NCBI GenBank assembly: GCA_025786725.1
Contig: JAHLTZ010000041.1
Span: 116,744-180,743 of the forward strand
Reading direction: 5' to 3'
Length of the DNA: 64,000 nt
From: Syncephalis fuscata
Lineage: Eukaryota > Zoopagomycota > Zoopagomycetes > Zoopagales > Piptocephalidaceae
Shown here piece after piece: positions 32,859-63,844 of this stretch; positions within the stretch are counted from its first letter, which is position 1, and the number at the start of each line of letters is the position of its first letter. Both the position numbers and the translations under genes were made by a program. Under the pieces are notes generated by a model. That model was given only the letters and a program-made list of their open reading frames with translations, searched no databases and had not been told where the DNA came from.

Positions 32859-35800
32859 ATGAAGCTTTCTATTGCCGTCGTCTGCACCATCCTCGTGGCT
32901 TTTGTGGTCAATACAGCCATGGTGGATGCTAAGCCAAATCAAATGCGTCGTGGTATGTTGCAGCTACAACAAATATTTAATAATTTTATGTTTACTGACG
33001 TTGCGTTTGATTTTTAATGATATTAGCCGGTAGGTCGTGATCATGAATCATTGTCCCAATGCTTATTGAATGCTGCTATACATATGATAAACACATTTAT
33101 ACAATCGGTAAGTGTTGATTACACATGTCTGTAATGTGCTATTAACTTTTATTTTTGACACATAATAGGTCAACTAGTATTGGCTAAGAGTAGGTTTAGC
33201 GTAAAACAAAATAAAGCACTACAATGATGATGCTAATATTCTGTATTTACATTAATAGGATGTAAACTAAGTGAAATTAATAAGCCACTCATTTAATTAA
33301 CATTGTTTTATTACCAATCTAACTTTAACAGCCAGTAAGTGCCATTGCATATTAGTTGGTTGTATAATAATTACATGTTGTGCGCTGTGTGTGTCTAATA
33401 ACTTTTATCAACAGCCCGTAAGTGCCATTGTATATTAGTTGTTTATGTACTAATTACATGTTGTGCGCTGTATGTGTTTAATAACTTGCACCGATAGTCT
33501 GTAAGTGGCATTATATATTAGTTGGCTATATAATAATTACATGTTGTGCGCTGTGTGTGTTTAATAACTTTTATCAACAGCCCGTAAGTGCCATTGTATA
33601 TTATTTTTATTTTTATTTTGAAGAGCTTGTGAGCCCCCGCTGCGCATAATTAAAGAATTTGCGCTGCTTCCCACTATATTTGGACTTTTTCCAAACTTTT
33701 AACGGGTGGACTGCCACGTTTTTGCGCAAAATCTGGTCCATATAGATTTTACACGGGGGCCATCTTCCTTTAAATGGTGCTACACAGCACTATTCTCTTG
33801 AAGTTGGTCCCAATTGGGTTTTCCTCGGCTATTCTGGCCAAGGTCTTGTTTCCGGACCTACTTATTGGGTTCTGGTTTGCAATTTGTTAACTAGAGAAAA
33901 CTGGAGGGGGGGATTTTCCACTTAAGGATTGATTCAAACTGAGGTTTGAACCCGGAGCCTTCAGCTCGGGAGACGCTGCCTTACCAACTGGGCTAGCAAC
34001 GTCCCCCGTGCCATTGTATATTAGTTGTTTATGTACTAATTACATGTTGTGCGCCGTGTGTGTTTAATAACTTGCATTGATAGAAGGTAAGTGTAATTGT
34101 ATATTAATTAGCTATATACTAATTACATGTTATGCGCTGTGTGTGTCTAATAACTTTTATCAACAGCCAGTAAGTGGCATTGTATATTAGTTGTTTATAT
34201 ATTAATTACATGTTGTGCGCTATGTGTATCTAATAACTTGCATTGATAGCCTGTAAGTGCCATCGTATATTAGTTGGCTATATACTAATTACATGTTGTG
34301 CGCTGTGTGTGTCTAATAACTTTTATCAACAGCCAGTAAGTGTAATTGTATATTAATTAGCTATATACTAATTATATGTTGTGCGCTGTATGTGTTTGAT
34401 AACTTGTATCGATAGACTGTAAGTGCCATTGTCTGTTAGTTGGCTATATACTAATTATATGTTATGCGCTGTGTGTGTCTAATAACTTTTATCAACAGCT
34501 GGTAAGTGTAATTGTATATTAATTAGCTATATACTAATTACATGTTATGCGCTGTGTGTGTCTAATAACTTTTATCAACAGCTAGTAAGTGCTATTGTAT
34601 ATTAATTAGCTATATACTAATTACATGTTATACGCTGTGTATGTCTAATAACTTTTATTAACAGCCGGTAAGTGTCATTGTACATTAGCTAGCTATATAC
34701 TAATTGCATGAGATACTCTGTGTGTGCATATGTCTAATAACTTATATTGGTAGCTAGTAAGTGACAAAGTATATTAATTGATTATATACTAATTGCATGA
34801 TATACTTGGTGTGTGTGTCTAATAACTTGTATTGATAGATCGTAAGTGACAAAGTATATTAATTGACTATACTAATTGCATGATATACTTTGTGTGTGTG
34901 TCTAATAACTTGTATTGATAGATCGTAAGTGACAAAGTATATTAATTAGCTATATACTAATTGCATGATATACTCGGTGTGTGTGTCTAATAACTTGTAT
35001 TGATAGTCGGTAACTGACGTTACATCATAATTGACTATATACTAATTACATGCTATGCACTGTATGTGTCTAATAACTTGTATTGGTAGCTAGTAAGTGA
35101 CAAAGTATATCAGTTGGCTATATACTAATCACATGCTATGTGCTGTATGTGTTTAATAATTTGTATTGGTAGATCGTAAGTGACGAAGTATATTAATTGA
35201 CTATACTAATTACATTATATACTCGGTGTGTGTGTCTAATAACTCTTATCAACAGCCGGTAAGTGTTATTGTATATTAGTTGGCCATATACTAATTACAT
35301 GCTATGCACTGTATATGTCTAATAACTTGCATTAATAGCCGGTAAGTGCCATTGTATATTAATTTGCTATATACTAATTGGATGATATATTCTGTATGTG
35401 TGTGTTTAATAGCCTGTAAGTACCATTGTATATTAATTGACTATATACTAATTACATGCTATGCACTGTATGTATCTAATAACTTGTATTGGTAGCTCGT
35501 AAGTGACAAAGTGTATTAATCGACTATATACTAATTACATTATATACTCTGTGTGTGTGTCTAATAACTTGGATTGGTAGATTGTAAGTGACAAAGTATA
35601 TTAATTGACTATACTAATTGCATGATATACTCTGTGTGTGTGTCTAATAACTCGTATTGATAGTCGGTAACTGACGTTACATCATAATTGACTATATACT
35701 AATTACATGCTATGCACTGTATGTGTCTAATAACTTGTATTGGTAGCTAGTAAGTGACAAAGTATATTAATTGACTATATACTAATTACATGATATACTC

Positions 35801-36031
35801 GGTGTGTGTTTAATAACTTTTATTGATAGATGGTAAGCGGCATTATAGACTATTTAACTATACGCTAATTAAATAATATGGATATTTAATAACTTGTATT
35901 AATAGATAGTAAGTGACGCTCTATGTTAGCTATCTATGCACTAATTATATGTCATTTAACATACTATCAATGAAATTAGACTAATCAATGCTTCAAAGAC
36001 ATTAGCATTGGTAGCATTACTAGAATGGTAG
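32859..36031 (+). CDS. Secreted peptide gene whose body is an array of one-codon exons (predicted)
   Basis: Exon 1 (32859-32952) encodes MKLSIAVVCTILVAFVVNTA then MVDAKPNQMRR plus one base. The signal peptide is nearly identical to the intact paralogue at 63844. A donor (gtatgt) follows at the point where homology to the paralogue ends. From there I predict 3-nt exons at 33027, 33259, 33332, 33415, 33498, 33581, 34084, 34167, 34250, 34333, 34416, 34499, 34582, 34665, 34754, 34839, 34922, 35007, 35090, 35173, 35256, 35339, 35413, 35496, 35581, 35664, 35747, 35830 and 35906. The terminal exon 36006-36031 ends LVALLEW then TAG. In phase 1 the joined frame has no stop and is rich in Ala, Asn, Ser and Thr, with no cysteine. 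Without splicing the product would be a 52-aa peptide ending at 33017. Gene, promoter and exon 1 are well supported; use of the 3-nt exons is inference. Confidence 0.6.
33332..35908 (+). repeat. Tandem array of 83-bp intron-like units separated by 3-nt variable triplets
   Basis: 27 regular triplets, preceded by two looser ones (33027, 33259). Each unit runs gtaagtg..., tatactaattacatg, gc(a/g)ctgt(g)tgtgt, tctaataactt, then (a/t)(t/c)(c/g/t)a(a/t)(c/t)AG. Then come exactly three bases and the next GTAA. Spacing between triplets is 83 in most steps, with 85, 89, 74 and 76 as exceptions. The 6th to 7th step is 503, which returns to 83 once the SINE and one target duplication (420 bp) are removed. 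The AG and GTAA are kept in all 27; the triplets include CCA, CCC, TCT, AAG, CCT, ACT, CTG, CTA, CCG, ATC, TCG, CTC, ATT, ATG and ATA. Confidence 0.95.
33604..34007 (-). mobile_element. tRNA-derived SINE inserted in the array
   Basis: 404-bp insertion flanked by a perfect 16-bp target duplication (gtgccattgtatatta at 33588-33603 and 34008-34023). On the minus strand it begins GGGGGACGTTGC. It has a pol III A-box-like tagcccagttgg (33984-33995) and B box gggttcaaacc (33943-33953) about 40 bp apart, as in a tRNA gene. The body is non-coding, and the element ends in an A-rich tail of AAAAT-type repeats (33604-33620). It is more GC-rich than its surroundings. It has no ORF and would rely on a partner LINE for movement. 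No second copy is in this window. Confidence 0.9.
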
Positions 36032-37093
36032 TTCAATACACTTTAGGTATATATTCGGCAAAAAACAAGTCCATTTGTCAGCTGCTGTCCAGTCCATTTG
36101 TATATCAAGCTTTGGCCAATGCTTTGGTTTATTCATCTTCTATTCTATGGAATCATAATATTATAAAAAACTTTGCAATGAGCTGCGTCCATTTAGCTAT
36201 GCAAACTTTTAGTAATAAATACATGATTTTATTTTATCAATATCTTGTCAATTTTCTATTGTTATGACCATGTCTAGTTTACATTCTCCACTTGAAAAAC
36301 ACTAATCAATTAAATATATTAAAAAATTACAGATACTCTGCGCTATGTACAAGCATATGGTGACATAACTATAGTAACATTGCCATACAAATAACAGCTA
36401 TGAACGTAAATATTGCCAAAATGAAATGAGATAAATAAAAAATCAAATATCATTAGAATGGATAGTGTGATAGTAATCAACACTTACCGATCGATATACT
36501 GCTGTGTTTTGCTGTTGTCATTATTGCTAAAAACATATTTAATATAAACGTATGTATTCAAATTGACATCATTTCATTTTAATTTGCTATACATATGAAA
36601 AGCAATATTACTGGATCAGCTAATCATTTAAAAAAACACTCAAAACTGCTGAACAACAAGAGTTTTTTGGTAATTGTAGACATTGAAGAGTAGAAATAGT
36701 TGTGAATTAACAGTTGGTCCCACAATTAATAATTATAACTATTGTTGTTTCACTCGTCACTCCGTTTTGGAAAGCCGTCTTTACCTATATGTACTTTACT
36801 CACCTTTATTACCGATAAATTCGAGGCGATTTAACTATCGCACACTAGACGAGTTATCGGCTTGTCACGGTGAATAGAAAAATATGGGCCACGAATTGAT
36901 TAGACGATACTTTCTAACTACATCGTCCTTTCTTACTAATGTCCCGACATATTTTAGTGATTACTAGTGTGTATTTATATATACCAAAACAAATTAATAA
37001 ATACTGAATATCAATAAGCTATACTATCATGCCTTTTATATCGTTTTGCATCTTCGTAGCTGGATTTTATTTTTAAAATAAGCAATAGAAATT
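36032..37093. other. 3' flank of the array gene and intergenic
   Basis: 36006-36130 is homologous to the 3' flank of the intact paralogue (minus strand about 63610-63500; shared block atatcaagctttggccaatg versus atatcaagttttggccaatg). This marks the right edge of the duplicated segment. The open frame 36025-36267 lies in this flank and is not conserved as protein. The rest is AT-rich with nothing recognised. Confidence 0.6.
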
Positions 37094-63634: not shown

Positions 63635-63844
63635 TTATGCGCATTCCGCCTTGCATCTGCCAGGCTTGTTGCATTTTTCTTTCATGCTAGGTTTAGGGAC
63701 TCCTTCACATTCATTAATGCATTCCTTGCATTTAGCAGGATTCTTGGGGCCACGACGGACTAAGGCTGGATTGGCATCCACCATGGCTGTAGCGGCTATC
63801 AAAGCCACAACGACGGTGCAAACGACGGCAATGGAAAGCTTCAT
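63635..63844 (-). CDS. Six-cysteine secreted peptide (intact paralogue of the array gene)
   Basis: Intronless 69-aa ORF. Signal peptide MKLSIAVVCTVVVALIAATA, then a short propiece ending in VRRG (a possible dibasic processing site). The mature region of about 37 residues is Lys-rich, with six cysteines spaced C-x2-C-x3-C-x11-C-x5-C-x3-C, ending in Ala before TAA. Three disulfides are likely. The spacing does not match a defensin family that I can name. The promoter and 3' flank are shared with the copy at 32859, which lies in inverted orientation 31 kb away. It could be an antimicrobial or host-interaction peptide; that is inference from size, charge and cysteines only. Confidence 0.85.
   Translation of the reverse strand: MKLSIAVVCTVVVALIAATAMVDANPALVRRGPKNPAKCKECINECEGVPKPSMKEKCNKPGRCKAECA

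Follow-up and report, generated by a model that had tools for sequence, protein, structure and literature searches.

Serial one-codon exons as the probable coding units of a fast-changing secreted-peptide family in the fungus Syncephalis fuscata

In Syncephalis fuscata, a zoopagomycete that parasitises other fungi, genomic sequence points with high probability to a fast-changing family of secreted peptides whose messages would be spliced codon by codon, the mature peptide being encoded at almost one codon per exon. The triplets look coding by the sequence measures given below, and their splicing is what we infer from the signals that flank them and from intronless members of the same family. 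If this reading is correct, the spliceosome joins tens of one-codon exons, in order, within one transcript—exons far below the sizes assumed in ideas of exon recognition—and the family represents a peptide-diversification system acting at the codon level. Such arrays would offer a route of peptide evolution by insertion and deletion of whole codons, and would provide a natural system for testing the limits of exon size and sequential splicing.

Structure of the window gene

The window, i.e., the whole stretch of 64,000 nt that was analysed, carries on its plus strand a gene whose exon 1 (94 nt, 32859-32952) encodes the signal peptide MKLSIAVVCTILVAFVVNTAMVDAKPNQMRR and one base of the next codon, and ends at a GTATGT donor. 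Exon 2 (CCG, 33027-33029, plus strand, donor GTAGGT) corresponds to the exon that in relatives encodes the residue after RR. At the exon-3 position (TCG, 33105-33107, plus strand) the window copy has CAA instead of the acceptor CAG, which is intact in L001, L010, L014, L038 and L041, and TCG is probably skipped here. Between CCG and the 3-nt exon GAT (33259-33261, plus strand, donor GTAAAC) lies a 12-nt exon, TATTGGCTAAGA (33178-33189, plus strand), which has 15 nt in relatives; it encodes LAK of an LAKR site, and GAT completes the R of KR. A preliminary description of this DNA had proposed a serial one-codon layout, of which the triplets stand, but it had overlooked this 12-nt exon.

The count of 29 AG-NNN-GTA sites given in that description is borne out by 29 [CT]AG-NNN-GTA[AG] sites between 33027 and 35908, as is the regular array of 27 of them, found here within 33332-35908 (plus strand) with a TRF period of 83. 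These 27 one-codon exons are, in order and with the position of their first base, CCA (33332), CCC (33415), TCT (33498), CCC (33581), AAG (34084), CCA (34167), CCT (34250), CCA (34333), ACT (34416), CTG (34499), CTA (34582), CCG (34665), CTA (34754), ATC (34839), ATC (34922), TCG (35007), CTA (35090), ATC (35173), CCG (35256), CCG (35339), CCT (35413), CTC (35496), ATT (35581), TCG (35664), CTA (35747), ATG (35830) and ATA (35906). A spacing of exactly 83 bp recurs 19 times among the 26, and the rest are 74, 76, 85 (three times), 89 and 503 bp, the last because a SINE-like insertion of 404 bp (33604-34007, no strand assigned), flanked by a 16-bp target-site duplication (33588-33603 and 34008-34023), occupies one array intron. 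The SINE-like element (TTTTATTTTGAAGAGC...) recurs within arrays, lying in introns of L014, L022 and L049 as well as of this gene (at least four genes in all), and gave no match in Rfam; a search of the 64,000-nt window against Rfam at the gathering threshold and a tRNA scan likewise returned no match.

The final exon most likely begins at 35980 (plus strand; 35980-36060 covers its first part), where ATTAG/ACTAATC would yield xAC-TAA, the AC-TAA stop being followed by the 3' UTR. The corresponding start in several relatives is AG/AATAACC or a variant of it (giving xAA-TAA; altered in L044 and L047), and the intronless L013 reads through this site without an intron. The conserved AG/AATAACC favours a start at 35980, and on this ground 36006, which had been put forward earlier, was rejected. 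Thus assembled, the product would be a 65-aa preproprotein, MKLSIAVVCTILVAFVVNTAMVDAKPNQMRR-AVLAKR-STLSQATSNSATANHLANPAASHFANDN, probably cleaved at RR and KR, for which we take Kex2 sites to be the analogy.

Array introns are about 80 nt long with strong signals (GTAAGT, YTAATAAC, TAG). That these are the signals of introns in neighbouring genes, as had been claimed, agrees with two ordinary introns of the window, read by eye, which show like signals: GTAATT...ACTAATACG...TAG, in an ORF that we take to be Vac14-like, and GTAAGT...CTAATAA...TAG, in a PAP2-domain gene. The public model BDF19DRAFT_425841 (P0008) opens with exon 1 of the window gene, and the array is absent from it; ordinary gene finders thus miss such genes, so that parts of secretomes may be hidden. 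Public gene models were rejected as evidence of RNA: the ones inspected either run on into introns or leave the arrays unused.

Exon length, reading phase and coding character

The pattern CTAATAAC-N6-14-AG-N0-30-GTAAGT has 92 matches in 28.95 Mb, 88 of them with exactly 3 nt before the donor, against 4 matches in a backward-read control; with TTAATAAC in its place there are 228 matches (backward control 15), exactly 3 nt being found in 91 of 100 among the matches listed. The AG-NNN-GTAAGT layout, which the preliminary description wished to see sought in other copies, is thus present genome-wide. That description, which treats the layout as that of one gene, missed two things: the family extends across the genome, and the window also contains an intronless paralogue (P0007, 69 aa, belonging to a cysteine-rich branch; 63635-63844, minus strand). 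The exon 1 shared by the family, judged by inspection of its sequence to be a signal peptide (MKLSIAVV...), has at least 150 relatives in the genome (325 candidates, of which 150 were scored).

In a splice-chain model whose weight matrices scored nothing but intronic bases, and which was free to choose any exon length from 1 to 60 nt, 3 nt was the length called for 491 among 500 internal exons (29 loci, near-identical copies left out) and for 467 of 482 in a first run with near-duplicates, figures to which a possible circularity attaches through the training of the matrices on sites with 3-nt spacing. Since strict patterns recover 79 of 424 microexons in 18 genes, the genome-wide pattern matches suggest some 1,600 microexons in the genome, a crude figure in which duplicated contigs are counted.

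Exon 1 sets phase 1, in which a codon consists of the last base of one triplet and the first two of the next. Only 3 of 457 phase-1 codons are stops, compared with 15.4 (sd 3.0) in within-gene shuffles of the triplets, none of 5000 of which had three or fewer. These stops sit in L041, L058 and L049, that of L049 adjoining a 2-nt unit. Phase 2 has 58 stops where 54.1 are expected; phase 0 has none in 489 codons (7.3 expected), a shortage that may reflect the resemblance of AGTAA-like strings to donors. Codon usage was compared with that of 19 ORFs (60 aa or more) from intronless family members: the triplets fit in phase 1 (-0.08 bits per codon, with their own base composition as reference) and not in phase 0 (-0.95) or phase 2 (-0.82). 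Several copies look decayed, namely L011 (with a 2-nt exon 3), L016, L017, L044, L047 and L052, and the stops of L041 and L058 are in frame.

The gene at C2:654469-661200, in which 69 one-codon exons and a single 2-nt exon were called, remains free of stops for 61 codons in a row, 62 consecutive triplets giving EQKLQSFATQLQQEIDSFRPSCSEDIQKLYDQADKLHDELLKLNKFHEYIKQYGQLHQQDG. The loci L005, L006 and L050 all correspond to this gene, and its predicted product resembles a coiled coil; a heptad-like stretch similar to it occurs in L052, which has no ATG at exon 1. A protein search with the C2 product returned two candidates, none of them scored, and its mature part had no match in its own genome; L061 and L062 were rejected as its relatives, their similarity lying mainly in the signal peptide. 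Other arrays (L015, L021, L022, L041 and L080) read as proline-rich peptides, e.g., ETPRPPRPAPPRPG and PAPAPAPAPA, and in that of L080 (C19:2900-5800) exons of 3 and 15 nt make up a higher-order block that is repeated.

Spliced products and intronless paralogues

Among 56 distinct signal-peptide loci in the DNA examined, 37 are followed within 1.5 kb by three or more microexon sites; the other 19 are not, in a sample chosen partly for arrays and with 11 of the 19 covered over just 301-567 bases beyond the start. Eighteen of these 19 carry an ORF of 64 aa or more, the exception being L012. L012 (C1:496442) and the intronless L013 (C1:523550) are identical at 795 of 798 upstream bases; past exon 1, L012 enters unrelated-looking sequence. 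The S. fuscata protein BDF19DRAFT_419028 matches L013 at 100% identity; protein searches with L013 and with a profile of 12 products found S. fuscata proteins only, and the mature part of L013 matched nothing but itself in its own genome.

The intronless L013, L070 and L061 encode RRAVEPLAKR, HRDVVPLAKR and RRDAAPLAKR, respectively. Exons of 94+3+3+15+3 nt give AVAPLAKR in the microexon genes L001 (and its near-copy L003), L010 and L014, DVSPLAKR in L038 and GVVPLAKR in L041. An xVxPLAKR pro-segment would thus be obtained by splicing in 6 of 11 rows (five distinct genes), of which, the PLAK motif having been part of the search, only the flanking residues and the phase are independent. The remaining 5 of 11 have no clean segment: L034 splices to DAPLVKR, the window gene (row L009) fits with AVLAKR if TCG is skipped, and L011 (2-nt exon 3), L016 and L017 do not match.

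A second point of comparison is a C-x2-C-x3-C motif—defined after L049 had been seen—that lies near the mature start in six intronless paralogues, one of them that of the window (63635-63844, minus), and in the public protein P0013, compared at the protein level alone. Read by hand, L049 has 33 exons, all 3 nt long except for one of 6 nt, which together would give RRGKEECQKCLAECDENYYRNNYYEEYMSCKKDCECS, in a model that uses two GC donors and other weak sites and leaves out one 2-nt unit; L031 would be spliced to RRGLEECWACMDECTTIYTTA, its locus sequence stopping before the gene end. When a profile of seven cysteine-branch proteins was compared with array peptides in all three phases, hand-read L049 and L031 came out on top, both in phase 1, with weak E-values (0.012 and 0.02); the automatic model of L049 was third (0.076). 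Of 20000 shuffles of the L049 triplets, 1 reached the profile score, 49 contained the bare motif and 191 attained the alignment score to L037 alone; of 20000 shuffles of L031, none showed the motif and 22 attained the alignment score to L037.

Spliced L049 and intronless L037 are collinear, with 624 of 772 upstream bases, 76 of 94 bases of exon 1, 47 of 102 in the array codons and 426 of 670 in the final exon and 3' side identical. About 3 kb of one-codon exons in L049 thus faces 40 uninterrupted codons in L037 for the same kind of peptide. The comparison with intronless paralogues supports the earlier claim of one-codon exons, in the phase of exon 1, in a gene for a secreted protein.

Array introns, origin and mechanism

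The array introns form one family, interior identity being 0.71 within genes and 0.63 between them, as opposed to 0.31 with interiors shuffled (108 introns in 18 genes; no start was found for L027 in this sample). A consensus structure was sought in the 108 introns and none emerged. An intron profile (nhmmer) matched only in arrays, within the window and 8 loci.

Triplets differ between units more than intron interiors do in all 19 arrays measured. Among 15 paralogue pairs, triplets change faster than introns in 9 and show no change in 6, two of the latter (L041/L042 and L041/L043) having 10% intron difference. Triplet changes amount to 16 of 42 against 41 of 1005 in introns for L010/L011 (Fisher p 4e-11), and to 15 of 54 against 254 of 1887 for L039/L055 (p 0.008). 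In L039/L055 the donor sites also differ less than the intron interiors (0.018 versus 0.135), a figure somewhat biased because the sites were picked in one partner. Whole-unit exchange may contribute to triplet divergence alongside selection. The near-identical L040 and L059 are set apart by the presence or absence of two entire units (162 bp; VPVPV versus VPV), and the near-identical L018 and L019 likewise by whole units (244 bp). Because the codons lie between near-identical introns, recombination could add or remove whole codons without frameshift, a mode of gain and loss that would suit a fast-changing secreted peptide.

As for origin, introns may have been gained, introner-like, after each codon of an intronless gene, rather than lost through cDNA from the intronless copies. 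This would be compatible with codon-by-codon splicing, and both the family identity of the array introns and the promoters retained by intronless copies are in line with it. We nevertheless regard it as rather doubtful, since insertion would be required at almost every codon and always in phase 1, the intron profile, run on the window and 8 loci, matches nothing outside arrays there, and loss through cDNA needs just one event per gene. Introner-like elements and fungal stwintrons, for which many introns of one genome share sequence (PMC8469720, PMC4457414), resemble the array introns in their similarity across genes; the S. fuscata introns differ in standing in tandem, 3 nt apart, and, within the nine sequences searched (the window and 8 loci), in one gene family only.

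Nearest in kind are two families of small-exon genes. The micro-exon genes (MEGs) of schistosomes have secreted products and very small symmetrical exons of varying length, with alternative splicing yielding related proteins (PMC4350168). The S. fuscata family shares with them secretion, as judged from exon 1, a coding region made mostly of very small symmetrical exons and a mature part that is less conserved than the signal peptide. It differs in exons almost all of 3 nt, up to 69 per gene, and in a single intron sequence family; no homology with MEGs is apparent, and the protein searches described above found S. fuscata proteins only. The bicycle genes of aphids are putative effectors with about 17 exons on average, in phase 2 (PMC9168663); both families have numerous small internal exons that keep almost without exception to a single phase, whereas one-codon exons, phase 1 and occurrence in a fungus set S. 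fuscata apart, and the likeness involves no homology. Isolated microexons of 3 nt and 1 nt can be spliced (PMC4674806; PMC7392893; PMC12940212) and RPS24 has three consecutive microexons (PMC12686416, PMC11162997); the 3-nt and 1-nt cases are isolated ones, in contrast with the serial arrays of S. fuscata. Word searches of one open literature library found no precedent for serial arrays of one-codon exons. On balance we favour the view that the architecture is an undescribed one, comprising dozens of genes, more than 1000 one-codon exons (by crude extrapolation), a ratchet of one codon per cycle, recombination that would insert, delete and exchange single codons without frameshift, and finished peptides fixed at times as intronless copies via cDNA.

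In the proposed mechanism, exon 1 would contribute the signal peptide and the dibasic RR and end one base into the next codon; each 3-nt exon would then supply bases 2 and 3 of one codon and base 1 of the next, and the last exon two bases and the stop. Since exons of 3 nt follow an exon 1 of 94 nt, all introns are in phase 1. With just 3 nt between them, the acceptor and the donor of one exon should not be usable simultaneously, and introns would therefore be removed one after another, most simply from 5' to 3'. Each splice would add one codon to exon 1, bringing it against the next GTAAGT, so that a 5'-to-3' splicing ratchet keeping a codon per step is probably at work, with the triplets normally all included.

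The earlier proposal of a combinatorial peptide, i.e., real exons chosen in many combinations to give a cloud of peptides with single-residue differences, finds no support here and is unlikely. All exons share one phase, so any subset stays in frame, and so does the copy with a broken acceptor (TCG, CAA); however, the cysteine spacing of L049 and L031 and the PLAKR segments agree with those of intronless genes when the triplets are all kept in their order, and these features, like the coiled-coil-like C2 product, need ordered triplets and as a rule all of them. Near-consensus sites at nearly every unit point to regular inclusion, and the sequence comparisons gave no sign of exon choice.

Very unlikely, in our judgement, is a minisatellite of intron sequence within one long intron, whose units would be ignored while a short protein is made from exon 1 and a bit downstream. 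The public model P0008 at the window locus does this, the repeats are tandem with a period of 83 and the triplets vary freely between units; but the 3-nt length is fixed while introns vary, stops are avoided in one phase only, in which the codon usage fits, and the spliced products agree with intronless paralogues. Recursive splicing with the triplets as stepping stones lost from the message is extremely unlikely: closely paired acceptors and donors are a hallmark of ratchet points (PMC8605326), but ratchet points join the two directly, whereas 3 nt that look coding intervene here, and these introns are short, at about 80 nt.

The recursive-splicing device suggested earlier is possible as one retaining each triplet. 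PMC8605326 describes ratchet points in long introns, at which 0 nt are left and the donor is regenerated stepwise; the array sites are alike in placing an acceptor right before a donor, and unlike in their short introns and in the 3 coding nt that would remain per step. At donors reading GTAAGTGA (window 35909-35919, and similar donors), an intron retained after a phase-1 exon would be read xGT-AAG-TGA, an immediate stop, and retention at successive donors of this kind would yield a ladder of truncated peptides.
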